Assembly: GCF_021535045.1 (NCBI RefSeq)
Contig: NZ_CP091056.1
Span: 1,984,001 to 2,048,000, forward strand
DNA length: 64,000 nucleotides
Origin: Ornithinimicrobium sp. INDO-MA30-4
GTDB lineage: Bacteria; Actinomycetota; Actinomycetes; Actinomycetales; Dermatophilaceae
Reading direction: 5' to 3'
In this document: positions 41,910 to 56,923 of the stretch, one piece after another
Numbering within the stretch: position 1 is the first letter of the stretch
How the letters are laid out: each line of letters begins with the position of its first letter
The notes under the pieces: generated by a model
Told to the model about the DNA's origin: nothing
Databases searched by the model: none
The model's input: the letters and a program-made list of their open reading frames with translations, nothing else
Made by a program: the position numbers and the translations under genes

Positions 41910-42514
41910 TAGTCAATCCCCTTGCGGGCACGGATCTTCTCGTCAAACGCGTGCTTGATCTTGGTCATTTCGGTCACGGTGTTAGCGACCTCGACAACCT
42001 CGGCTGCCATCTCGCGGCCAGTCAAAAAGACCGACACGTTCTCCGGTCGGTTCTTGAGCGTTTCAGCGACCTCAACTGGGTCGATCCAGCCCCAGGACAT
42101 CGGATAGCTGATCTCATCGAGCACGATCATCCTGTGCGAATCAGAGTTAATGAGTTCTTTGCTGAAGGCCCAGGCCGCGAGCGCTTTGGCCTTGGTCTCG
42201 TCCATGTCGTTGGACTCCCATGAAAAGCCATCGCCGGCGACAAACCAGTCGATGCCAAGTTGCTTACTCATCGCTTCTTCACCGGTGTGCCACTTGCCGC
42301 TCTTGATGAATTGCACGACAGCCGTGGGCCAACCGCGAGCGATCGAGCGCATCGCGGTGCCAAACGCAGCCGTGGACTTGCCTTTACCGTGGCCGGTGTT
42401 CACGAGCACCAGCGAAGACGCTGAGCGCAATTCGCGCTTGTTGTAGGGCCGCTTCTCACGTGGTGCGTCGTGATCCTTGTCCTGCGTCGTTTCGTCGGCA
42501 ATCTCGTCGCTCAA
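41906..42514 (-). CDS. cobO: Cob(I)alamin adenosyltransferase, CobO type
   Basis: Intact 202-residue corrinoid adenosyltransferase. The P-loop is VNTGHGKGKSTAAFG; further motifs are RGWPTAVVQFIKSGKWHTGE, MIVLDEISYPMSWGWI, and FLTGREMAAEVVEVANTVTEM. It attaches the 5'-deoxyadenosyl group to Co(I) corrinoids. Its ATG overlaps the btuD stop by ATGA, placing it at the end of the riboswitch-led btuF-btuC-btuD-cobO operon, so imported corrinoid is adenosylated by a coregulated enzyme. Confidence 0.95.
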   Translation of the reverse strand: MSDEIADETTQDKDHDAPREKRPYNKRELRSASSLVLVNTGHGKGKSTAAFGTAMRSIARGWPTAVVQFIKSGKWHTGEEAMSKQLGIDWFVAGDGFSWESNDMDETKAKALAAWAFSKELINSDSHRMIVLDEISYPMSWGWIDPVEVAETLKNRPENVSVFLTGREMAAEVVEVANTVTEMTKIKHAFDEKIRARKGIDY

Positions 42515-43330
42515 GGCAATCCTCCAGGTCGGTCTTCGGGGTGGCGGGCGGAACGGGGAGCCGGGAGCACCACGTATTCGCCATCAAGTTTTCGGACGGT
42601 CAGCGGCGTCTCGTAGACATCCGACAGAATCTCTGGCTGCAGGACTTCTTCGGGAGAGCCAATGGCCACCACTTTGCCGTGGCGCATCAACAGCAACCGG
42701 TCGGCAAATCGAGCAGCAGTGGTCAGGTCGTGCATCGCTGCCAGGACAGTGAGTCCATCGCGTCGGCGCAGGTCATCGACCAACTCCAACACCTGCACCT
42801 GATGTCCAAGGTCGAGAGCGCTGGTGGGCTCATCGAGCGCCAGGATCGAGGTCTGCTGCGCCAGCGAGCGAGCCACCACGACGCGTTGGGCTTCACCGCC
42901 AGAGAGGCCCACGACCTCACGTTGGGCAAAGTCGGCCAAACCCAGGCGGTGCAACACGCTGTCGACAATCCGGTGATCGCGCTGAGACTCTCGCGCTAGC
43001 CAGCCCAGTGAGCGGTGCGCCCGAGCAACACATACTCGACCACGCTCATACCTTCGGGGAGCAAGGGTTTTGTGGCATCACCGCGATGTCAGTGGCGCTC
43101 GGGGCGCGGCCATCAGGCATCGTCACCGTGCCGGTGTGCTTCCCCAAACCCGCGATCGTATGCAGCAGCGTGGACTTGCCAGCACCGTTCGGTCCGAGCA
43201 CGGCCAACCACTCACCGGCATAGAGGTCAAGGTCAACGCCAGCAACAGCCGTCTTGTCGCCATAAGAAACGGAGACGTCGCGGCAGGACAAGGCGACAGT
43301 GTCGGTCACCACCGGGTTCGCGCTCATCAT
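42511..43330 (-). CDS. btuD: Corrinoid ABC transporter ATP-binding protein (two frameshifts)
   Basis: About 273 residues. Walker A is VLGPNGAGKSTLLHTIAGL, the signature is VVGLSGGEAQRVVVARSLAQQ and Walker B is SILALDEPTSALDLGHQ. Frames change near 43062 and 43000; between them the sequence reads LLPEGMSVVEYVLLGRTAHW, typical of the Q-loop region of FecE/BtuD proteins. ATG 43330 overlaps the btuC stop. Position in the riboswitch operon supports corrinoid import. Confidence 0.9.
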
Positions 43331-44447
43331 GCACCCCGGCGCGAGCGTCGCAACACGAAGGCAAAGAACGGTGCGCCGACAAACGCAGTGATAATGCCGA
43401 CGGGCAACTCGGCCGGTGCAACCACAGTGCGGGCGCCAATGTCGACCAGGGCCATAAACGAGCCACCGACCAACGCCGACAAGGGCACAATCACGCGATA
43501 ACTATGGCTGGTCAGCAGACGCACCAGGTGCGGCACGACCAGGCCGACGAAGGCGATCAAGCCGCTGACCGCAACAGCCGCCGCTGTCAGCAGGGTGGCG
43601 GCGGTGATGATCAGGAAGCGGGATCGGGCCGGGTTGAGCCCCAAAGCACGGGCTTCGTCGTCGCCCAACCGCATCACGTCGAGGTGACGGCGCAGCATAA
43701 TCAGCAAACCGCCACAGACGATGACATAGGGCAGCAGCAGAAGGACTTGCTCCCAGCCGCTGGTGGCCAGCCGGCCAAAGAGCCAGGACAGCACTTCACG
43801 TGCCCTGGTTTCATCAAGTTTTTGCAGTGCATAAGTTTGCGCGGCGGAAAACAGAGCGGCTACCGCGACACCGCTGAGCAACAAAGTTGCTGGCGACGTC
43901 CACGACCCTCGTGCCACCAAGACGGAGGCCAGCACCGCGACGACGGCACCGATAAAGGCCGCGGCCGGGACTGCCGACACCGGGCCCCAGCCGATGTCCA
44001 GGCCAAAACCCAAAGCTAAAACAGCGCCAAAACCGGCACCCGCGGAAACGCCAAGCAGGTATGGGTCCGCCAGTGGGTTCCGGAAGACGCCCTGGAACGA
44101 TGCCCCCGCCATACCCAGTGCAGCCCCGACGAGGACGCCCAAAATCGTGCGTGGCAGGCGAATCTGGAAGAGCACGGCCTCGGCCCGAGAGTCGAGGCTG
44201 GTCGCCAAATCGACACCTGGGATGAGATTGAGCATGGAGCGAGCGACTCCGGCCACCGGCAAGCCGGCAGCCCCACTCGCGGCGCTCAGCAGGATGACAG
44301 CGATCAGCACGGTGACGCAGATCGCGACCACCCGTTTGCGCAGCCTAAAGGACCCCGTCGCGGAGAGCTCAGGCAAGCAAGCGACCCCGACCCGACGGGC
44401 GAAGTTGCCTTCGTCGCCGCCTGATCGAGGTCGCGTTGCTGTGTCAT
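43327..44447 (-). CDS. btuC: Corrinoid ABC transporter permease (FecCD family)
   Basis: About 350-370 residues with ten membrane helices, such as RLPRTILGVLVGAALGMAGASFQGVFRNPLADPYLLGVSAGAGFGA, the coupling-helix region ARALGLNPARSRFLIITAATLLTAAAVAVSG and FVGLVVPHLVRLLTSHSYRVIVPLSALVGGSFM. The main frame begins at 44376; ATG 44447 with an upstream GC-poor leader is a likelier start but is in another frame, so one more base error near 44385 is suspected. It ends in ATGA overlap with btuD. Confidence 0.9.
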
Positions 44448-44468
44448 GTCAGTGCTAATAGTTGCTGA

Positions 44469-45442
44469 TCAGCCAACCGGCACGGCGGCAGCATCCAGAG
44501 CCTGCGCTGCTGCCTCAATGAACTGGGGCAGACGTGGCCCCCAGCGCGAAGCGATGTCAGCGTTGACCGTGATGATGTTGCCCTCTTGCACGGCAGTGAT
44601 CTCGTCCCAGCCCGGACGTGCGGCGACGTCTTCGGCGGTGTAGCCAACCTGATCGGTGATCACGATGACCTGCGGGTCCGCTTCGATGATGAACTCTTCG
44701 GTGAGCTGGGGGAAGCCAGACTCATCGGTGTCAGCCTCATCGGCGATGTTGGTGGCGCCCAAGTCGGCGTACACCGAGCCAACGAAGCCGAACGAGCTAG
44801 CGGAGAAGAAGGTGTCATCCAGCTCGTGATAAACACGCGGCGAAGCTTCGGCGGGAGCTTCGGCAAGGGCGGTGTCAACATCTTCGCGCAGGCCAGAGAT
44901 GACCTCTGCCGTCTCATCAACGTGGTCGGTGGCCACACCGAGGTCGGCCATTTGCGCATAGCCACCCTCGATGTCGGCAGGTGCGCCGTAAACCAGGACG
45001 GGGATGTCGAGCTCGCCCAAGCTGGCCACCAGGTCGTTGGAGTCGCCAGAGGCGACAACCAGGTCAGGCTCGTAGGCGACGATGGCTTCGATGTTGGGGT
45101 CGAAGCCCGACAAATCGGTGACCGGGGCTTCTTCGGGCGTCGTTGAGAAGGAGTCGACAGCGACAACCTGGTCACCAGCGCCGATGGCGAAAAGCACCTC
45201 GGTCGCGCTGGGCGAGATCGAGACGATGCTCTCCGGCTTGGCTTCAAGGACGGTTTCGCCAGCGTCGGACTCGATAGTGACGGGGTATTCGCCACTCATC
45301 GCCTCACCAGTTTCTTCGGCGGCGTCGCCTTCAGCAACCTCTTCGCCCTCGGAGCGGTCGATGGTGTCTTGCTCTTCGATGCTTGCGCAGGCCGAAAGGC
45401 CAACAATGAGCGCCAGCGGGCGGCCCATGTGCGTAGTTTCAC
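44469..45442 (-). CDS. btuF: Corrinoid-binding lipoprotein of the ABC importer
   Basis: About 320 residues. A lipobox (VGLSAC) precedes an acidic linker and the periplasmic-binding fold of the TroA/BtuF superfamily (IVSISPSATEVLFAIGAGDQVVAVDSF; IEAIVAYEPDLVVASG). GTG 45442 has an AGGAG site seven bases upstream but is out of frame with the lipobox by one base, so the first codons probably contain an error; the in-frame ATG 45428 has no good ribosome site. It lies directly after the cobalamin riboswitch, which supports a B12-type ligand. Confidence 0.9.
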
Positions 45443-45474
45443 GTTAGATCTCCTAGTCGTCGAGGTGGATTTGC

Positions 45475-45650
45475 TCGAACGACGGGATCCTGGTGTCGAT
45501 CGAACCAGCCCTTGTCCTCGAGGGTTCGCGGTTCAGATCACGCTGAAGTTCGACCGGACTGATCCATCCTGGGATGGCTTTACCGTTGCGGGACAGTGCC
45601 GGACTCTCACCGGACTTCGACTTTCACCGTGCGCGGTCAGCCTACCTGGT
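45475..45650 (-). promoter_or_regulatory. Cobalamin (AdoCbl) riboswitch
   Basis: On the minus strand the core reads GTCCGGTGAGAGTCCGGCAC then CTGTCCCGCAACGGTAA, an excellent match to the conserved B12-box region of cobalamin riboswitches (GGTG-AA-TCC ... CTG-CCCGCAAC-GTAA). Upstream is the GC-rich arm with GCACGGTGAAAG; downstream helices and a GACAAGGGCTGGTTCGA region follow before the btuF start. It should shut off btuF-btuC-btuD-cobO when adenosylcobalamin is plentiful. Outer boundaries are approximate, and the 5' edge overlaps the end of the cobC-like gene. Confidence 0.93.
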
Positions 45651-46539
45651 CCAAGGCATATGCCAACCGACTCAGTCCTTCGGAATTGGGCACCGCGACC
45701 CGGAATACGCCTGGCATCCCGAAGCTGGTGCAATCCCGGACCACAATTCCGTATGGCGCCAGTTCGGTCCGCAAGTCCGTGCCGCTGACCAATACCCACG
45801 GGGCATCGCCGGCCCGGACAGTCAGCCCATGATCCACGAACAGCCGCCTCAACTCGCCGCGGAGAATGGCGATCTGCATCGCCAAACCAGGCAAATCAGC
45901 ATGTTCCAACAGATCCGGCAACACCGCGAGCGCCAACGTGCTGACCGACCAATGCGGCTGGTGCTGACGCAGTCTGGCCGGGTCAAATCCCTCCGGCGCG
46001 ATGACATACCCCAGGCGCAGGCCGGGGCAGGCGAACGTCTTGGTCAGCGAGCCCACCGTCATCTCAGGCCGACCAGCGCTCCACGCCCCGGTGGCCAGCG
46101 CAAAGAATGCTTCGTCCCAGACATCTGCGCGGTTTCTGGGACCAGCTAAAACGCCGGTCGGGCTGTGAGGGTTGCTCCTCCAGATCGGTCCGCGCACGCC
46201 TGGGCGACGCGGGTGTAGCCCAAACTCGGGCTCACGGGCCACGGTGCCGCCAATCTCGGTCGCGACGATGTGGATAGCCTCGCTGCCGCCATTGGTCAGG
46301 ATCAGCCGCTCAGCGTCCACCCCGATGACCTCCGCCAACATGCGCTCCGCCCGCCGCGCATCTGGATAATGCCCGATGGCGTCGAGGTGACGACTCACCA
46401 GTTCATCGAATTGCGGGGGAAACGGGTTGAGGTTTTGGGACAGGTCCAGCACAGACTGAGGATCAAGCCCCAGCGCAGCCGCGATGGCTGGGCCATCTCC
46501 GCCGTGAGCACCTGGGGGTGGCAGGTTTATTGAGGTCAC
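45637..46539 (-). CDS. PLP-dependent CobC-like aminotransferase-fold enzyme (threonine-phosphate decarboxylase type)
   Basis: About 300 residues from GTG 46539. The sequence opens AHGGDGPAIAAALGLDPQSVLDLSQNLNPFPP, followed by ILTNGGSEAIHIVA, and the PLP-Lys motif VGSLTKTFACPGLRLGYVIAP. This matches the actinomycete CobC-like (Rv2231c type) proteins. L-threonine-3-phosphate decarboxylation yields aminopropanol phosphate, the substrate joined by CobD. Its stop overlaps the riboswitch region, so it lies immediately upstream of the importer operon, on the same strand but probably in a separate transcript. Confidence 0.85.
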   Translation of the reverse strand: MTSINLPPPGAHGGDGPAIAAALGLDPQSVLDLSQNLNPFPPQFDELVSRHLDAIGHYPDARRAERMLAEVIGVDAERLILTNGGSEAIHIVATEIGGTVAREPEFGLHPRRPGVRGPIWRSNPHSPTGVLAGPRNRADVWDEAFFALATGAWSAGRPEMTVGSLTKTFACPGLRLGYVIAPEGFDPARLRQHQPHWSVSTLALAVLPDLLEHADLPGLAMQIAILRGELRRLFVDHGLTVRAGDAPWVLVSGTDLRTELAPYGIVVRDCTSFGMPGVFRVAVPNSEGLSRLAYALDQVG

Positions 46540-46558
46540 TTGACTATCGAACCACCCC

Positions 46559-46915
46559 TCAGTGGCTATCGCTGACGCAAAATTCGTTGCGCTCGGGGTC
46601 CAGCAGCGTCGTCCAGGTGATGCCCCACTCGTCGTGGGTGGAGTGCACGCTGGCGCCCAACTCAACCAATCGCGCAACCTCGGCCTCACGGTCGTCGGCG
46701 GAGAGGTCCAGGTGCAGGCGATTCTTAACGGCCTTGCCCTCAGGGACCTGTATGAAAATCATGGCTGGCTCGCCCTTGGGCCCGATCACGGCAACGAACT
46801 CACCCGCCTTAGGCTCAGCAGCGAACTCGTAACTCAAAGCCCTTGCCCAAAAGTTGCCGCTGGCTGCGCGTGGGCCGCGTCGACCGTGATGGCGCCAAGA
46901 GAGAGACTAATACCT
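46559..46915 (-). CDS. Small VOC-family (glyoxalase-like) protein (frameshift)
   Basis: About 118 residues. The reading LSLGAITVDAAHAQPAATFWARAL joins, one base off near 46858, to SYEFAAEPKAGEFVAVIGPKGEPAMIFIQVPEGKAVKNRLHLDLS and TWTTLLDPERNEFCV, a complete single VOC unit. The missing base is a T in a T run. The start is unclear: no ATG or GTG with a spaced ribosome site is in frame, although GGAGG lies at about 46915, so a further base error is possible. Function unknown beyond the VOC fold. Confidence 0.75.
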
Positions 46916-46952
46916 CCATCGTGGCCAGAATGTGTGCGCTTGTCGAGGTCTG

Positions 46953-48207
46953 TCAATCACTCTTCCGGATCGCCGTGATGATAGATGGAATTGCCCCCAG
47001 GCCGTTGACCACCACATACGAGGTCACAGCCCCCACAGCGGGCAAGACTGCCAACTCAGCCGACAGGCCAAAGAGCATCGTCGTCAGCACCAAGATCATC
47101 AGCGGCAGCGGGACGACCGCGACACTAACAGCGGCCGCGATCGTCGGAACAGCGACAACCAGGGGGATTGAGGGGATGAGCGAATTCACCGCGATGCCAG
47201 TGATAGCACCCATAAAGAGCAACGGAAAGACCGGGCCGCCAAAAAACCCCACTTCATCGACAGCGCAAAGACCAGGGTTTTCGCCATAAGGACAACCGCC
47301 AAGTAGCCCAGACCAACGGTGGCCGTTTGAGCCAGGATCGGCTCCAGTTGGCCCCGACCGCTGAACATGGTGACGGGCAGGGCAAATCCACCGCTGCAAT
47401 CACGCACCCGGCAACTGTGGACCGCACCACTGAATTCTTGAATTTTTCGCGCACTACGCCGGCTAATTGCAAGCTGAGGACCGCGATAATTCCCATGAAC
47501 GCGCCTAAAACACCAAGGCCAATAGCGATGGGGATCCACGTAACTTCCAGACTTGCTTCCGCTAAGTCATAGACATTGAGGAACGGGGAGCCCGCGAAGG
47601 AAACAGCACTGTCAGAGCGACTGTCGCGGCGACCAGGCCAGGAATCAGGCGCTTATGGCTAAAGGCCCAACGCTCGTGATGCGCTTCTAGAGCCATGATC
47701 GGGCCCGCGTAGGGTGGTCGCCAAACCACCAAATACGGATGAGATTCCGGCAAACGTCAGATCCTTTGTCATCTCCTGATCGCCGCCGACTTTTTCCGAT
47801 ACCCCAGTGCCGATGCCTGCACCGAGCGTGCCTAGCGGAGCCTCCGGACCGGCGGAGCCACCCCCGATCATGCTGACCATTCCGATGGCTGCGAACCGAG
47901 CAGCGTGCTGGGGCCGCACTTCTCCTTCGATCATTTCGTCGACGAAGTTCGGGTCCACACCCTCCAGTTGCCAGATCTTGCGCAACCAGCCGACCAGGAA
48001 CGAGGCGACCACCACGATCGCCACGGCTGTGAGCGACCCGCTGAACCAGCCGAGTGGGGTTTGCTCTTCACCCCAAATGAAGGTGTGCATCAAACTTTCG
48101 ACGCCGAGAAACACCAACACCCCAATGGCAGAGAACGCTCCCACCAGCGCGGAAAGCAGGACGAGACGGCCAAAGCCTGCATCACGGGCAAAAGTGGTTG
48201 TGGTCAT
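46953..48207 (-). CDS. CLC-family chloride channel/antiporter (several frameshifts)
   Basis: About 417 residues. Frames change near 47710, 47600, 47395 and 47250. Helical signatures: SLMHTFIWGEEQTPLGWFSGS, the ion-binding motif GGGSAGPEAPLGTLGAGIGT (equivalent to GREGP), GIAVNSLIPSIPL and a C-terminal FGLSAELAVLPAVG stretch. The gating Glu is retained in GPEAP. There is no CBS domain. It may exchange chloride for protons or act as a channel; the distinction cannot be made here. Divergent from the gasdermin-like gene across 104 bases. Confidence 0.85.
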
Positions 48208-48311
48208 AGCCGAAATCTAGTCTCAGCGGATGTATCAGCCAAAGGCATGACAAGTCCTGACTTGCACAACAAGCCCGGGCGCAACCAGCGCCGATGACAA
48301 AGGAGTGCATC

Positions 48312-49026
48312 ATGCCCGTACGCCCGAACTACTACAAGCACAACAACAAGAAGTACTTCCGCAACGCAGCGGAGAACGTCCTCCTCGGAAGCTTCGGGGA
48401 AAAGAAGTCGCCAGTCGGTGGACGCAACTACCTTTCAGTCGAGGGCCAGGTGCCGAGCCACATTCTGGACAACTACGCACGGAAGGTGACGACCGTTAAG
48501 GAGAACTGGCAGGCGGCAACGCAAGTAGACCTTGGCTCGTCGTCCGTGGCTGGTTTCGATGTGGCCGGCTCCAGCCTGAGCGCATCGCGGCAAACGTCAT
48601 TCTCGCTGAGCGACCTGCGCTCCGCCGATGTTGAGTTGGTGAAGTTTGTGCTCGACGAAGGCGACGTCAAGCGCGTTCTCAACCAGAACTACACGCGGGC
48701 TCGCACTGCCATGAGCAACGAAGGCAACGACGCCCGCATCGCAACATCTGTCTGGATTGCGATGAGCGCGACGCTGGCGCGGGACTTCAGTGTTGGCGCT
48801 GAATTGGAGATGTCGGCCAGCGCGGATGGCATCAAGATCACGTCCTACGTCGAGGCTGACGGAAAGGCAAGGAAGCCTCATGATCGCCCGCCGGGTGAAG
48901 AACGTCATCACCCTGAGCCAGGGGACGACTTTCGCCTACGGCATGCACAAGGTCAAGACCTGGGAGCAGTCACGCCGTCGTGGTCGGGTTATGGACCTTG
49001 AAGACGACTACCAGGGCATGGGCTGA
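48312..49026 (+). CDS. Candidate gasdermin-like protein (one frameshift)
   Basis: About 237 residues from ATG 48312, after an AAAGGAG site. No named motif is certain. A predicted N-terminal helix (KKYFRNAAENVLLGSFG) is followed by a Gly/Ser-rich strand region (DLGSSSVAGFDVAGSSLSA), then DVELVKFVLDEGDVKRVL, then ARIATSVWIAMSATL. After a frame change near 48868 it ends with KNVITLSQGTTFAYGMHKVK. Order and spacing recall the gasdermin N-terminal domain, whose last strands in animal proteins have the form VTIP-G-T-LAF-V-QL. There is no signal peptide or Cys. A 18-base hairpin separates it from a large unknown gene. The family call is inference and needs structure comparison. Confidence 0.45.
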
Positions 49027-49045
49027 ATTACCTACTGCAGCACTT

Positions 49046-49091
49046 AGTCTGGCGGGTGGAGCCGGCCCTGTTGGGCTCCACCCGCCAGACT
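49046..49091 (+). terminator. Strong hairpin between the gasdermin-like gene and the next gene
   Basis: A perfect 18-base stem (AGTCTGGCGGGTGGAGCC against GGCTCCACCCGCCAGACT) with a ten-base loop, followed by TTTCCC. It starts 20 bases past the first gene's stop and ends 22 bases before ATG 49114 of the next gene. It can terminate or attenuate transcription or stabilise the upstream message, making the downstream gene less expressed. Confidence 0.85.
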
Positions 49092-49113
49092 TTCCCGTGA
49101 GGAGACGCTGCAG

Positions 49114-51258
49114 ATGACCCAGCCCGACCTCCACTGTGGAGCCAGGCCCTGATGGCAGCGTCGGTGCACGAAGACCGCAAGACCCGTCGGGGGGCGGATC
49201 GCCGGGCCCAGTCCTGGGCGCGCTTGCTCAAGGAATGACCCACGGTGAAGTCGCTCGCGGCTCCCTCACCAGCATCAAAGCGTTGCCTGGGTGGGTCACC
49301 TTGGACATTGAACGGCCCAAGACTGAGCTCTGGACTACAACGCAGCAAACCGGCAAGACCATCGCTGGTGGCCCATTGGAAGCCGACGAAATCGAACGGG
49401 CACTGGCCTTGGGCATCAGGCCCAATCGTGCTGAGGTCTTTGCCTCATACCTCACCGGCACAGGCCTTCGAGAACTCTACGAACTACTCGATCAAGGCTC
49501 CTACCGGGTGCATCGGCCCGAAGAAGCAGCACTTCTCGTCATTGCTTGGTTATTGCGCGAGAAGGATCGCACCAATGCCTTGGACATCCTGGAGCAGATC
49601 ACCCCGTATGCGGCTCGCCTTCGGTTTATGCCTCGCGTCGCCAGCGCGCTATTTGCCACCAGGGGTTGTGGCCCGGCACACAACGGGCGACATCATCGCG
49701 TTTCTTGACGGCATCGGCACCAGCGAGCGCATCGAAACCCAACGCGAAGCCCTGTGCGTCTGGCTGCCGCTGAGAGACGAGTTCCTGGCCCTGTGGCTCA
49801 GCCTGCGGACCGCCACCGGCGATGACCTCACCAGTAGCGAAGCCACCAGCAAGACCCTGTCATGGAGCGCCGAGCAGGTTGAAGAAGCACACCGTGTCCT
49901 GCGCCGGTATGACGCTGCGTTGCGTCAGCACCCACGGTGCAACAAGCCGCATCACGAGGGCAGCAACCTGCGTCTCTTGGTTGATGCCACCCGCAAACGC
50001 CTACTGAATCAACTCGATCCCAGCAGTTTCGGCTGGGCCCGGTGGCAGCGCGTGACCTGATCAAGAAGTCAGGGCGTCCTGGCGATAAGGCCCACACCAC
50101 GCTGCGCCTCCAGCAAGCCCGAGTTGCTGCCATGCCCTCGCCGCCCTACTCGCCGCTGTTGCACAACATCGCCTATCGCAGCATCGGGCCGATGAAGGCT
50201 TGCTCCATCCTGAGCAGCTCACACATCCGGTCAGTGAGGCCGAGGCCGAGCAACTCCACCTCTCCGCTGGAAGTCCGCTCAGTAGCAAGATCACCCGTCT
50301 GATCCACCGTGCTCAAGCTGGTTCAATAGCCGATCTGGTCGCTCAGGGCGTGGTGTCGTCGCCGTGGCTTCGCGAGAAAAGGCTGACCGCCAGGATGACG
50401 CCTTGGGCCTGGCTCGACGAGTGAGCGCGCTGGCGATCGATTCGTTCCCGGGCAGCCCGTTGCCAAACCTCATCGTGCACGATCTGTCCGCGCTCTTTCA
50501 GGCTGGCGGTTGGCGACTGCCCCTGGTCGAAGAGCCCTCCCCGCATGACTTCGAGGAAGTTTCGGTGAGCGCTTCGTGGCCGCTGCTCAAAGCGCGGAGA
50601 CCTTGCTGAACGGGACGCTGTACGAACGATACTTCGACCTCGACTACGCGGCCGTTTGCTTACTCCGTGGGAGACCCCGAGAGCCACCTTGCTCGGGCGA
50701 AAGCCGGCGACCGCAGGAGCGATTTTCGGCCAACTTTGCCTGAGTCGCGCCGGGCTGAAATCGGTCGACTCGGTCCATGACAGTCGGCGCGTCATCGAAG
50801 TCAGCCAGCAGTTCACCACGCACAATCTCGCCATCCTGCTCGACGCTGGCGTGCACCCGCAGACCCCCTGGTTTGAACTGGCGCTATCTGCCGGGCAGAC
50901 CACGGCTGAACTGCTGCTTCGCGTCCCAAGATCGCCCAATCCGCAAACCACACTGCGCAATGCCGGGTATGCGTGGCGCCAGGCGCTGTTCTTCCTCAAG
51001 TGCGCCGGGGAAGAGCGAGCGCCTGAGTTCATGACGCGCCTCAAGCCAGCGAAAGTGCGTCAGATTGGCCGCTCAGCGAGGTGCTCGATGGACTTAATTT
51101 TGTCGTGCACAGAGGGCGATTTGCGCCAACCGACAGTGCGGCTTCTTTCCGCAGGTTGGAGGGCTGGAGCAGCCATCCACATGGGGCCATCGGGTCCGCC
51201 TCACCCCCGCATACGTGATGCAAGCCAGGCCATTTACGCCACAACCGAGTTTCTTTAA
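49114..51258 (+). CDS. Large unrecognised protein (multiple frameshifts)
   Basis: About 715 residues if ATG 49114 (GAGGAG site upstream) is joined through breaks near 49134, 49230, 49660, 50050, 50150, 50350, 50560, 50655 and 51050. Readable blocks include GSLTSIKALPGWVTLDIERP, EADEIERALALGIRPNRAEVFASYLTGTGLRELYELLDQGSYRV, PEEAALLVIAWLLRE and, near the C terminus, QFTTHNLAILLDAGVHPQTPWFELALSAG and NAGYAWRQALFFLK. It looks mainly helical, soluble and without membrane segment, P-loop or protease motif. It shares a transcript direction with the gasdermin-like gene and probably forms a unit with it. The number of breaks is high, so true decay cannot be excluded. No function assigned. Confidence 0.6.
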
Positions 51259-51268
51259 TCGCCGAAGC

Positions 51269-51287
51269 TATGGATAGGCTCCCCTTA
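51269..51287. promoter_or_regulatory. IdeR/DtxR-like iron box
   Basis: TATGGATAGGCTCCCCTTA matches 13 of 19 positions of the IdeR/DtxR consensus TTAGGTTAGGCTAACCTAA, including the central TAGGCT and CCT. It lies 24 bases upstream of the siderophore-binding lipoprotein start, so repression by iron-bound regulator is likely. The match is moderate, not perfect. Confidence 0.55.
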
Positions 51288-51310
51288 CCTACTAAAGGAT
51301 GGAGCCATTC

Positions 51311-52315
51311 ATGGCCTTGCAGAACCGTGGACGCGCATCGATGGCTACCGCCGCCGTCGCCTCACTGATGTTCCTCGCCGCTTGCGGCTCTGACGACTCG
51401 AGCGACTCTGGGGAAGCCGCCGACAGCAGCGCCGATGCAGGCGCCGCAACCGTCACGATTACCGACTCGCAGGGACGCGATGTCGAGATCCCCACCAACC
51501 CCGAAGTTGTTGTCGCTACGGACTGGACAGCAATCCGCACGCTGAACGACTTGGGCGTTGAGGTCGATGCCACACCAGCCTCCATTGCTGGGCTGCCGGA
51601 TGACCTCGCCGTTTACGAGGATGGCAATATCCCAACCGTCGGCGATGTCTTCGAGCCTGACTACGAGGCAATCGCCGCGATGGAGCCCGACCTCGTTGTC
51701 GTCGGCTCGCGCAGTGGCACCCCCGAGGTCGTCGCCGAGTTTGAGCGCTTCGCTCCGGCCGTGATCGACATGTCGGTTCGCACCGAGGACCCGGCTGAGT
51801 TTGTGCCCGACACCCGTGAGCGTGTTGAGCAGTTTGGTGAGATCTTTGGCCTTAAGGCCGAAGCCGACGAACTGATGACCGGCGTTGAAGACCAGATTGA
51901 GGCGCTCAACGCCGAGATCACCGAGAGCGGCGACAACGCCATGTTCGTCCAGGTTTCCGACGGCTCCGTTGGCGCCTACGGCCCCGGCTCACGCTTCGGC
52001 CTGGTCTACTCGGTCTTCGGCTACGAGCCGACCGATGCACCCGTCGATGACGAGGGCAGCCACGGTCAGGAGATCAGCCAGGAGTTCTTCGTTGAGTACA
52101 ACCCCGATGCCCTCCTGGTGCTTGACCGTGCCAAGACCGTCGGTGAAGACCAGACTCCCGCGCTCGACATCTTGACCGACGGCCTGGCCGACAGCACCAA
52201 CGCCGCGCAGGACGACCGCATGGTTGAGGTGGACGGCTTCTCTTGGTACCTCGCCGCCAACGCACCAAGCTCGCTGCAGGCGATGATCGACGACGTCGTC
52301 GCCAGTCAGGGCTAA
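51311..52315 (+). CDS. Iron-siderophore-binding lipoprotein
   Basis: About 334 residues from ATG 51311, preceded by GGAG; the in-frame ATG 51299 is too close to its ribosome site. A lipobox (FLAAC) and a Ser/Asp-rich linker lead to a siderophore-binding fold (VTITDSQGRDVEIPTNPEVVV; IPTVGDVFEPDYEAIAAMEPDLVVVGS; VSDGSVGAYGPGSRFGLVYSVFGYEPTD). The GSRFG and EISQEF segments resemble the YclQ/FatB (petrobactin-type) group. First gene of a four-gene uptake operon, five bases before the permease. Confidence 0.9.
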   Translation: MALQNRGRASMATAAVASLMFLAACGSDDSSDSGEAADSSADAGAATVTITDSQGRDVEIPTNPEVVVATDWTAIRTLNDLGVEVDATPASIAGLPDDLAVYEDGNIPTVGDVFEPDYEAIAAMEPDLVVVGSRSGTPEVVAEFERFAPAVIDMSVRTEDPAEFVPDTRERVEQFGEIFGLKAEADELMTGVEDQIEALNAEITESGDNAMFVQVSDGSVGAYGPGSRFGLVYSVFGYEPTDAPVDDEGSHGQEISQEFFVEYNPDALLVLDRAKTVGEDQTPALDILTDGLADSTNAAQDDRMVEVDGFSWYLAANAPSSLQAMIDDVVASQG

Positions 52316-52321
52316 GCATCT

Positions 52322-53339
52322 ATGACGTTGACTCGCGCGCCTGAGCAGTCCGCGCAACCACGAGCAGGTTCCAGTTTCTACCGCTGGGGCCTGCTCTTGG
52401 CCGTCCTTGCCCTTGGCCTGGGCGCGTATCTCTCGCTCGGGGTCGGCGTCGTGCACATCCCGCTGTCAGCCATGTTTTCCCCTGATGAAGATCAGTGGGA
52501 GATCATCTCTCGCTCTCGACTGCCGCGGACGGCAGCGATCTTGCTGGCTGGCTCGTCGATGGCGGTCGCTGGCTTGATCATGCAGCGCATCACGCAGAAC
52601 CGCTTCGTTTCACCGTCGACTTCAGGCACCACCGAGGCTGCGATCTTTGGCATCTTGCTGGCCACCTTGTTTGTCCCCGGGCCCTCGCTGACCACCAAAA
52701 TGATGATCGCCATCGTCACATCGATCATCGGCTCCGTTATCTTTTTGCAGATCCTGCAGCAGATGCGGCACCGCGACCCACTCGTGGTGGCCCTGCTCGG
52801 CATCATGTACGGCAGCGTGATCAGCGCCATCACCGTCGCGGTCGGCTATCGGCTGGACCTGGTGCAGCTGCTCGATATCTGGACGACGGGCTCGTTCGCC
52901 TCCATAATGTCCGGCCAATACGAGCCGCTGTATATCGTGCTGTTTGCCCTGATCGCGGGCTTCTTTTTGCCGATCGCTTCACCGTGGTGGGGATGGGCCG
53001 CGATGTGTCAACCAGCCTTGGCGTCAACTACACGTTCGTGCTTTACACCGGGCTGATCGTCATCTCGATCATGTCTGCCTCGGTCGTGGTTGTCGTTGGA
53101 GCGATCCCCTTCTTAGGCCTCATCGTGCCCAACGTGGTCGCGCTGATGATGGGGGACCACGTCCGTCGCGTGCTGCCGGTCACCGCAGTGGCCGGAGCAG
53201 GGTTTGTCCTGATTTGTGACATCATCGGCCGCTGGATCATCGCGCCTTATGAGATCCCAGTGGCAACGATTGCTGGCGTCGTTGGCGCTGGCTTCTTTGT
53301 CTGGCTCATCGTTCGACACGGCAAGGGGCTTCGGCATGA
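52322..53339 (+). CDS. Siderophore ABC transporter permease 1 (two frameshifts)
   Basis: About 338 residues of the FecCD family. Features include RSRLPRTAAILLAGSSMAVAGLIMQRITQNRFVSPSTSGTTEAAIFG and, after a frame change near 52985, MGRDVSTSLGVNYTFV and GAIPFLGLIVPNVVALMMGDHVRRVLP. The frame again appears one G short in the GGGG run near 53327; restoring it gives a TGA at 53339 overlapping the next ATG (ATGA). It pairs with the second permease, as in YclN/YclO. Confidence 0.9.
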
Positions 53340-54362
53340 CCGCCGTTCAAGACCACGCCACCACTGGCCACACCATCTCGGCCAACGGGGCATCTCCGGC
53401 AGAGAAGGCTAAAGACCGTCGCGTCCTGGCCATCCTCATTGGGCTCGCCGTGCTCGGATTGCTGGCCATCACCGCATACCTCACGTATGGCGTGCAGGGC
53501 AGTTGGTCGTATGCGCTCAGCCTGCGCTCGCGCCAGGTCGGGTCACTGATCGTGGTGGGCATCGCCATTGGGGCCTCCAGCCTGGTGTTTCAAACCATCG
53601 CCGGCAGCCGCATCCTGACCCCTGGCGTGATGGGTTTTGATGCGGTTTATGTGCTGATCCAGACGATGATCGTTAGCCTCTTTGGGGCGAGCACGTTGCA
53701 GTTGTTGGGCGTGATGGAGCGGTTTGCGCTCAACACGTTTGCGCTGATGATCTTTGGTTTGCTGCTGTTTCGTTTTTCTTTCGCTCCAACAGCCGCAACC
53801 TCTTTGTGGTGGTGCTGGTCGGCATCGTGCTCGGCTCGCTTTTTGCCTCTCTCAGCACACTGACCTCTCGACTCCTCAGCCCCGATGACTTCTTGACATT
53901 GCAGACGGTGCTCTTCGCCAGCTTCACGACGGTTGACCCGGTGCTACTGGGGTGACCGGGGCGGCCACTGCGTTTGGGCTGCTGGCGCTGTGGCCGCAAC
54001 TGCGCAAACTGGATGTTGTCGATTTGGGCCACGACGGCTGTGTTGCTCTCGGTGTCGACTACCACCGCACGGTTCGCACCACGTTGGTCATCGTGACGCT
54101 GCTGGTGGCAGCCTCGACGGCTCTCGTCGGGCCGATGATCTTCCTGGGACTCATCGTGGCCAACCTGGCCCGGCAAGCACTCCCGACGCACCGGCATACC
54201 TCGTTGGTTGTGGCCAGCGCACTCATCGGCCTGCTCTTCACGGTCGGTGGCCAATTCCTCGTCACGCACGTCTTTGACCTGCAAACCCCGATCAGCGTGG
54301 TCATCAACCTCGTTGGCGGACTCTATTTCATTGTTCTTCTCTTGAGGACTGATCGACTGTGA
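53336..54362 (+). CDS. Siderophore ABC transporter permease 2 (two frameshifts)
   Basis: About 341 residues of the FecCD family, from ATG 53336. LRSRQVGSLIVVGIAIGASSLVFQTIAGSRILTPGVMGFDAVYVLIQ is the typical first half. Frames change near 53775 and near 53945. The second half has LDVVDLGHDGCVALGVDYHRTVRTTLVIVTLLVAASTALVGPMIFLGLIVANLARQAL. It overlaps the following GTG start of the ATPase gene (GTGA). Confidence 0.9.
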
Positions 54363-55160
54363 TTTTCCTACATGCCGTCTCGCACGCCTATGGGGCCACG
54401 ACGGTCCTCGATGGGGTCGATCTGAGCATCCCGCGGGGCAAATTAACTGCCCTGGTGGGGCCAAATGGCGCTGGCAAGTCGACGTTGCTGTCGGCAATGG
54501 CGCGGCTGCTCAAGCCGGACACCGGTCAGGTGATGGTCGGCGACCTCGACGTGCTGAGCGCTAAGCCCGCTCAGATGGCCAAAAATGGGGGTGCTCAAGC
54601 AACTCAACCAGCTCAGCGCCCGGCTGACGGTGATCGACCTGGTGCGCTTTGGCCGATTCCCGCACTGTCAGGGGCACCTACAGGCCGAAGATCACCGCAT
54701 CGTCGAGCAGGCGATGGACTATGTCGACCTGCAGGAATTCCGCGATCGCTTCTTGGATCAGCTCTCCGGCGGGCAGCGTCAGCGTGCGCTGATTGCGATG
54801 GTGTTGGCGCAAGACACCGAATACATCCTGCTCGATGAGCCGCTCAACAACCTCGACATGCGGCACGGGGTAGCCATGATGCAGTTGTTGCGCCAGGCCG
54901 CCGATGACCTGGGCCGCACCATCGTCGTCGTGCTGCACGACATCAACTTTGCTTCCGCGTGGACCGACTATTTGGTAGGTATGCGGGATGGCAGCGTTGT
55001 CGCTCAAGGCACGCCCGAGCAGATCGTCCAGCGTGAACCGCTGCGCGAGATTTTCGGCCTCGACATGCAGGTCGTCGATGTGGCCGGTCGCAAGATTGGC
55101 ATGTATTGGCACCCAGAGTTGATCGGCGCTGAGAGGCCAACGCAGGCTGCTGCGGTCTAG
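54359..55160 (+). CDS. Siderophore ABC transporter ATP-binding protein (one frameshift)
   Basis: About 266 residues from GTG 54359. Walker A is LVGPNGAGKSTLLSAMARLL, the Q-loop region VLKQLNQLSARLTVIDLVRFGRFPH, the signature LDQLSGGQRQRALIAMVLAQ and Walker B YILLDEPLNNLD. The frame changes near 54590 in an AAAA/GGGG stretch (KPAQMAK then MGVLKQLN). It resembles YclP. Last gene of the operon; no clear terminator but a repeat-rich gap follows. Confidence 0.92.
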
Positions 55161-55194
55161 CCGCCCCGCCCCTGCCCACGGCCCCCTCACAAAA

Positions 55195-55265
55195 ACGCGA
55201 ATCGCATGTTTGCGCTCTGGTCGCATGTTCTAACGCGCGCTCAGAGCAACAAAGCGCGAATCGCA
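55195..55265. repeat. Short repeated motifs after the siderophore operon
   Basis: CGCGAATCGCA occurs at 55196-55206 and again at 55255-55265, and TCGCATGTT occurs at 55202-55210 and 55221-55229. Partial inverted arms (GTTTGCGCTCTG with CAGAGC..CAAA) could also pair. They lie in the 178-base gap before the flavoprotein-methyltransferase gene. They might form a terminator or regulator site, but nothing fixes the role. Confidence 0.45.
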
Positions 55266-55338
55266 CTTGTGTCTTTGGCGACACGTCGCGTCCGGGAAGA
55301 CCTCGGCCAGCGCCTCGGGTGAAACGTAACTTAGAGAT

Positions 55339-56923
55339 ATGAGCCACGCGAGCCACTCCACCATCGAACGCCACTGCGACGTCGCCATCATTGGCGGCTC
55401 GGCTGCCGGACTTGCCGCAGCCCTCCAGCTCGGCCGTCTGCGCAGGTCGGTCATCGTCATCGATAGTGGCGAGCCGCGCAACGAACCGGCCGAGCACCTG
55501 CGCAGCTTCCTTGGCTACGAGGGCAAGGCCCCCGGCGACTTGCTGGCCGTCGGGCGCGATGAAGTGCGCAGTTATGGCGGCGAGATCCTGACCGGCCACG
55601 TTGAGACCGTCACCAAGGGTGATGACGGCAAGTTTGTTGTGCACCTCTCCGGGGGCAACTCCGTCGTAGCCCGCCGAGTGATCGCTGCCACCGGTCTGGC
55701 CGACCACCTCCCCGACATACCGGGTATGCGGGAGCAGGGGGCGCGGCGTCATTCACTGCCCGTTCTGTCACGGCTATGAGGCTCGCGACCAGGACATTGT
55801 TGTGCTCATCACTAGCCCGATGGTTCTGAACGCAGCCAGCCTATTCACTGCGCTGACCAACAAGTTGACCTTGGTGCTGCATGCCGAAGTTAGCGCGGAT
55901 GAGCCCGGTTTAGATCGGCTTCGGGCAGCCGGTGTCAGCGTGATTGACGCCAAAATGACCTCGGTGAACAGCGATGTTAGCGATGCCGTGACCTCGGTCG
56001 ATCTCGACAATGGGCAGCAGCTGCCGGCCCAGACCGTCGTCATTGGACCGACGGTCTCAGCGAACGTCGCGCCGTTTGTCGACCTCGGGTTGGAAGCGAG
56101 CGAGCACCCATGCGGCCTGGGCACCTTCATCCCGGTGGAGATGACCGGCGAAACGCCAATCCCGGGCTCTTTGCCGCTGGCAGCCTGACGAACCCAGGCT
56201 TCCAGGTGCTGCCCTCAGCCGCGCATGGCAGCCAGGTCGGTGCCTACGTCAGTTTCACCTTGGTCGATGAGGACATTGAGCAGGCGTCCAACGTCTCAGG
56301 CAATGCGTCCGATTGGGACAACCGCTACAGCAGCCAAGAGCGGGTTTGGAGTGGCAACCCCAACGGCAGCGTTGTCGCCGAAACTCAAGGCCTCGCTCCA
56401 GGCACGGCACTCGAGATCGGCGCCGGCGAAGGTGCTGACTCCATCTGGCTGGCCGAGCGCGGCTGGAGCGTCACGACCAACGACATCTCGCAGGTGAGCT
56501 TGATCGAGCCATGGCCGAGGCCAACCGTCGAGGGTTGACCCTGATCCCTTTGCGAGCCGACATCAACGACGCCGACCCCATCGACGGTCGAACCTTTGAC
56601 CTGGTCAGCCTGGCCTACGCCTCGTTCCCGAAAACGCCGGACGGCCGGGGTCTGACCAACGTGTTGAGCGCGGTGAAGGTCGGCGGCACCGTGCTGCTAG
56701 TAGGGCACGATCTGACCCCGATGATGGATGCTGCCCCGGGTGAGGCTCGTCCCTTTGACCATCGCGCCTACGTTCAGCCGGCCGACGTGGCTGAGATCTT
56801 GGCAACCTCAGACGACTGGGAAGTGCTGGTCAACGAGTTGCGCCCCGGCCGAGCGGCCACATTCACACCGGCAAGCACCATCACGTCGACGACGTCATCG
56901 TCCGCGCTCGTCGCCTTCGCTGA
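55339..56923 (+). CDS. FAD-dependent oxidoreductase fused to SAM methyltransferase (several frameshifts)
   Basis: About 527 residues. The N-terminal half is thioredoxin-reductase-like: the FAD motif VAIIGGSAAGLAAALQLG and, one frame over near 55735, the redox CPFC in IHCPFCHGYE. A frame change near 56160 leads to FAAGSLTNPGFQVLPSAAHGSQVGAYV. The same frame runs without a break into a class I methyltransferase: WDNRYSSQERVWSGNPNG and the SAM motif ALEIGAGEGADSIWLAERGW. Further changes near 56505 and 56855 restore an ending HTGKHHHVDDVIVRARRLR. Such fusions are known in actinomycetes; the substrate is unknown. Confidence 0.85.

Follow-up and report, generated by a model that had tools for sequence, protein, structure and literature searches.

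Genes at the locus

We analysed a 64,000-nucleotide stretch of the genome of Ornithinimicrobium sp. INDO-MA30-4 (contig NZ_CP091056.1, positions 1,984,001 to 2,048,000), hereafter the window. It carries a small gene (48312..49026, forward strand), a terminator-like hairpin (49046..49091, forward strand) and a large gene (49114..51218, forward strand). A preliminary description had read the small gene as a candidate gasdermin and the large gene as its unfamiliar partner. The main subject here is the small gene, which we treat as a candidate distant relative of the bacterial gasdermins (bGSDMs). Gasdermins are proteins that open holes in the membrane of a cell and so kill it.

The small open reading frame (ORF) starts at an ATG at 48312, with AAAGGAG directly on its 5' side; a frameshift near 48870 moves the reading into a different frame, which ends at 49026. 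The same region is carried by the congener Ornithinimicrobium laminariae Arc0846-15 (NZ_JAHZSU010000002.1; genome G020), in which the gene is intact and encodes 238 residues (protein P0002), as against the 237 counted earlier; over 715 aligned bases a single substitution separates the two copies. A relative from the actinobacterium G276, P0004, is 34% identical to the small protein over its whole length, and because of this full-length conservation the ORF is a genuine protein-coding gene and not a chance reading frame.

The two proteins share an N-terminal block (YFR..A..V.LGS.GEKK), a strand (TL...T.FAY.M.KV..W) and a C-terminal end (D.EDD..GMG). The last of these belongs to a conserved tail of approximately 20 residues that closes the small protein and consists of a basic linker followed by D-[LF]-E-D-D-[YF]-x-G-M-G. 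The motifs cited in the preliminary description are indeed present in the sequence, and one of them, TL..xTxFAYxMxKVxxW, also occurs in G276.

Queried with the small protein or with its two-sequence profile, overlapping draws of 1, 97, 396, 24, 394 and 346 genomes showed the gene only in the window genome, O. laminariae and G276, while a pattern scan of genome contigs returned O. laminariae only. No credible further relative was found in NCBIfam, PADLOC, PDB sequences, phages, plasmids or viral contigs. A Pfam SWIRM-assoc_3 match of the small protein (E 0.021, 15.4 bits against a cut-off of 27) and a PHROGs match of P0004 (E 0.2) were taken as chance. Seven weak genome matches to the small protein (E 0.004 to 0.13) were all discarded: three had stop codons within the matched stretch, one lay in an open frame whose base pattern is not that of coding DNA, one was a different, real ORF of 394 residues with approximately 80 residues aligned at about 25%, and two spanned only about 40 residues each.

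Comparison with bacterial gasdermins

Four bGSDM references were used: the solved proteins 7n51, 7n52 and 7n50, whose species labels we take to be vit, run and bra, and one cyanobacterial sequence from a Gloeothece plasmid. Comparisons were made with hhalign in local and global modes, using P0002 alone or a family profile of P0002 and P0004 (the pair). The null sets comprised 238 ORF fragments from the studied loci, sequence shuffles, 105 slices of the large-gene family, and block or column shuffles. As a positive control, a profile built from any three of the bGSDMs recovered the fourth, with local scores of 55-121; taken singly, true bGSDM pairs scored from 14.4 to 118.1. When plasmids, phages and viral contigs were searched for additional references, the Gloeothece sequence was the only one found. 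A separate search for bGSDMs in 336 Actinomycetota genomes with the four-sequence profile gave two matches, which were discarded for their four internal stops each.

Against the four-sequence profile the 238-residue protein obtained a local score of 30.0 (P 0.00097), with residues 71-171 (48522..48824, forward strand) aligned to profile columns 93-190. This score was reached by 0 of 238 control fragments (maximum 19.3) and 0 of 400 shuffles (maximum 20.6). The family profile scored 22.4 and was colinear over residues 87-219, a score that none of the 105 large-family slices (maximum 17.0) or 150 block shuffles (maximum 21.4) attained. With a three-sequence bGSDM profile the family scored 23.9, again above every slice (0/105, maximum 15.5), block shuffle (0/150, maximum 19.9) and column shuffle (0/300, maximum 20.9); reversed, it scored 17.3. 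In a register test, the best matches of the family to the single references agreed within 12 positions for all four, an outcome seen in 0 of 120 and 1 of 105 nulls. Using hmmsearch with two bGSDM profiles on a set of 540 sequences (the 238 fragments, 300 shuffles, P0002 and P0004), the small protein ranked first with both (E 0.05 and 0.0056). At the level of sequence, the small protein thus has a weak colinear similarity to bGSDMs, slightly above chance.

Many results weigh against a gasdermin assignment. The hhalign probability was only 22.0% for the 238-residue protein and 2.4-3.9% for the pair (2.4% at the score of 22.4). The signal also depended on how the references were aligned: with an E-INS-i alignment of the same four, the protein scored 20.4, approximately the shuffle maximum, and the pair 21.7, and with an alternative alignment including the full-length Gloeothece sequence the pair scored 17.2 (P 0.13). 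It depended equally on which references were used, being abolished by omission of 7n52 or 7n50, weakened by omission of 7n51 and kept without the Gloeothece sequence; 7n51 and 7n52 alone gave no signal, with 17/105 and 93/150 nulls scoring at least as high as the pair. In global mode the pair exceeded its nulls only with the four-sequence profile and not with the three- or two-sequence profiles (62/105 and 62/150 nulls reached it with three), and the single protein was beaten by 1 of 400 shuffles.

The second family member did not reinforce the signal. P0004 alone scored 10.3, under the null mean, its addition lowered the score, and it ranked 84 and 4 among the sequences scored in the two hmmsearch runs. 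In the register test, P0002 alone agreed for three of the four references (reached by 1/120 shuffles and 18/105 slices) and P0004 alone for one. Searches by phmmer with single references placed P0002 at ranks 31, 54, 5 and 35, and in the reverse search the family hidden Markov model did not lift bGSDMs above controls. The curated PADLOC bGSDM model (PDLC02986), which matches all four references, had no small-protein match at E<=10. Pfam Gasdermin (PF04598) was likewise without a match at E<=10, a silence that is weakly informative since this model matches just one of the four references, below its cut-off. There is no cysteine in the 238 residues of the small protein or in P0004 that could correspond to the N-terminal palmitoylated cysteine of bGSDMs; a start at the earlier in-frame ATG would bring one in, but the second ATG is favoured because of its AAAGGAG site. 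Single-sequence AlphaFold2 models were uninformative, with a mean predicted local distance difference test (pLDDT) of 32.0 for the 238 residues and 36.6 for residues 69-238. Finally, no protease family was found among the 13 neighbours scanned (10 in O. laminariae and 3 in G276), the other ORFs there not having been scanned. Because of these results, we do not class the small protein as a bGSDM. The resemblance described earlier has weak support, in the register proposed there, and this support is not robust to changes of reference set or alignment.

The Gloeothece verrucosa plasmid gene that matches the PADLOC bGSDM model (L041, 2992-3948) is annotated as hypothetical. It is followed by a second hypothetical gene (L041, 4300-5382), a potential partner.

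The large gene and the question of a pair

The large gene is broken in the window, with ten insertion or deletion events relative to O. laminariae, one of them a loss of 184 bases. The intact O. laminariae gene (L007, 7197-9491) encodes 765 residues from its ATG, or 792 from the first TTG. The large protein and its relatives had no credible match in Pfam, NCBIfam, PADLOC, PHROGs or PDB sequences, consistent with the earlier remark that no protease motif is visible in it; single-relative matches at E 0.15 and 0.18 were taken as chance. Among 396 genomes of the order, relatives were full-length or nearly so in six others (one with one stop), partial in one and weak in four, and the gene is also found on six plasmid records from Streptomyces, Embleya and Curtobacterium. 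In three of the six genomes the large gene is closely preceded by a tRNA gene of the same orientation. On sequence grounds the large protein is a member of an unnamed family of roughly 700-765 residues, sporadic in Actinomycetota and on plasmids, and it stands outside the function proposed here for the small protein.

The two genes share a strand, and the gap from the stop codon of the small gene to the ATG of the large one is 87 bases long in the window; in O. laminariae it measures 89. Between them lies an 18-base perfect inverted repeat with a 10-base loop, followed by TTTCCC, which looks like a terminator; the corresponding repeat in O. laminariae (L007, 7127-7173) is 94% complementary. 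The intergenic stretches fold at -54.9 kcal/mol in the window and -49.1 kcal/mol in O. laminariae (z -7.6 and -5.8). The hairpin was not among the hits of a simple scan for terminators in O. laminariae, which requires a shorter loop and a longer T run.

Linkage between homologues of the two genes elsewhere was not supported. By tblastn, the 17 kb surrounding the small gene of G276 held no large gene, and no credible small gene was present in the stretches examined around the six large-gene relatives, for one of which (L024) the contig end leaves 394 bases before the match; the best small-protein match there (E 0.045, 26 residues) was dropped. G276 is absent from the large-gene matches and the six large-gene genomes are absent from the small-gene matches, in samples of 396 genomes each that we take to be the same draw. 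No relative of the small protein turned up in the collection of plasmids from which the six large-gene records came.

Neighbouring genes and genome setting

The ten O. laminariae neighbours scanned are parts of a siderophore-type ABC transporter, an aminotransferase, a ClC channel and a regulator, and these surroundings are not an evident defence island. The ClC gene was found at E<=1e-20 in one of eight congeners searched, where, by our reading, it lies amid other genes. The three neighbours scanned in G276 are an AAA/TPR/LuxR regulator, an AlkZ-like protein and a GMC oxidoreductase. In G276 (L013, 8183-11579), the small-gene relative lies approximately 94 bases downstream of the first of these (AAA_16, TPR and LuxR (GerE) domains), on the same strand.

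The window genome (2.8 Mb, completeness 74.86%) and that of O. laminariae diverge unevenly. Over 42000-56000 of the window the comparison with L007 alternates between stretches of 0-5% and of roughly 6-32% divergence, with a switch within the large gene; in 200-base bins the values are 0-3% over 47.6-50.2 kb and 6-32% over 50.2-51.8 kb. These are probably tracts of homologous recombination. The near-identity of the two small-gene copies would accordingly reflect recombination rather than strong constraint on the gene, because the low divergence is only a local tract. Over 43000-56000 of the window, many small insertions and deletions disrupt ORFs whose O. laminariae counterparts are intact; these changes are probably sequencing errors.

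A possible distant gasdermin

We put the odds at about even that the small protein is related to gasdermins or works like one. Our preferred reading, to which we assign a probability of roughly 45%, is that it is a stand-alone protein of 238 residues, very distantly related to the bGSDM pore-forming domain, with the following mode of action. Its fold, autoinhibition, pore formation and role we infer by analogy with known gasdermins. The protein would be inactive in the cell, restrained by its last approximately 20 residues; removal or displacement of this tail would allow oligomerisation into membrane pores, and the pores would kill or arrest an infected or stressed cell. Its activator would be encoded at another site in the genome, not by the large neighbour.

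At least 50 bGSDMs are known, and they are described as having an inhibitory C-terminal peptide, a palmitoylated C3 and dedicated proteases (PMC10989679). The length of the small protein and its short conserved C-terminal tail fit the layout given there. Compared with the known bGSDMs (PDB 7N50, 7N51, 7N52, 8SL0 and 9V2S; PADLOC PDLC02986), the small protein is similar in length, has the weak profile similarity over residues 71-171 (87-219 for the pair) and, by eye, a last strand, TxFAYxMxKV, that resembles VFGFKCFEI and VFGVKLVRL of solved ones. It differs from them in not being recognised by the curated model, in its lack of cysteine and of a protease among the neighbours scanned, and in a similarity that lies under ordinary detection. 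The likeness to the eukaryotic gasdermin domain (PF04598) is confined to the order of elements noted by eye in the preliminary description; 238 residues are too short for the large helical C-terminal repressor domain.

A reading of almost the same weight, slightly short of an even chance, is that the small protein has an unrelated fold and is an orphan of actinobacteria, its gasdermin likeness being a weak coincidence that arose from deliberately testing one family. The silence of the curated model where the references were matched, the dependence on reference choice and alignment method, the lack of signal in P0004, and the silent single-reference and reverse searches all fit this explanation. 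It accounts less readily for a local score that no control fragment or shuffle reached and for a family profile register that agrees for 4/4 references; one true bGSDM pair, too, scores as low as 14.4. It is very improbable that the two adjacent genes form one functional unit, with the small protein as effector and the large one as sensor, activator or inhibitor. Adjacency alone, on the same strand with gaps of 87 and 89 bases, speaks for such a unit, whereas the genes are unlinked around the G276 small gene and the six large-gene relatives, an inverted repeat separates them in both species, and the plasmids with large genes yielded no small-protein relatives. The gasdermin pair of the preliminary description is therefore disfavoured.

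A more specific version of the preferred distant-gasdermin reading, which we regard as unlikely, is that the small protein represents a separate, unrecognised gasdermin branch of Actinomycetota, without the N-terminal lipid-anchor cysteine or a protease neighbour and with the acidic aromatic tail as its lock. On this reading the G276 gene, some 94 bases downstream of its AAA/TPR/LuxR regulator, might be activated through transcription instead of cleavage. Unannotated gasdermin-like clusters are reported to have been detected by structure (PMC10584675), so unrecognised divergent gasdermins are to be expected. The titles and abstract openings of the gasdermin literature searched, their full texts not having been checked, name no actinobacterial bGSDM.

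Should the small protein not be a gasdermin, the case measures how far motif reading by eye can be trusted. If it is one, current bGSDM models overlook a branch of the family, and neither pairing with a protease nor N-terminal lipidation would be universal among the gasdermins of bacteria.
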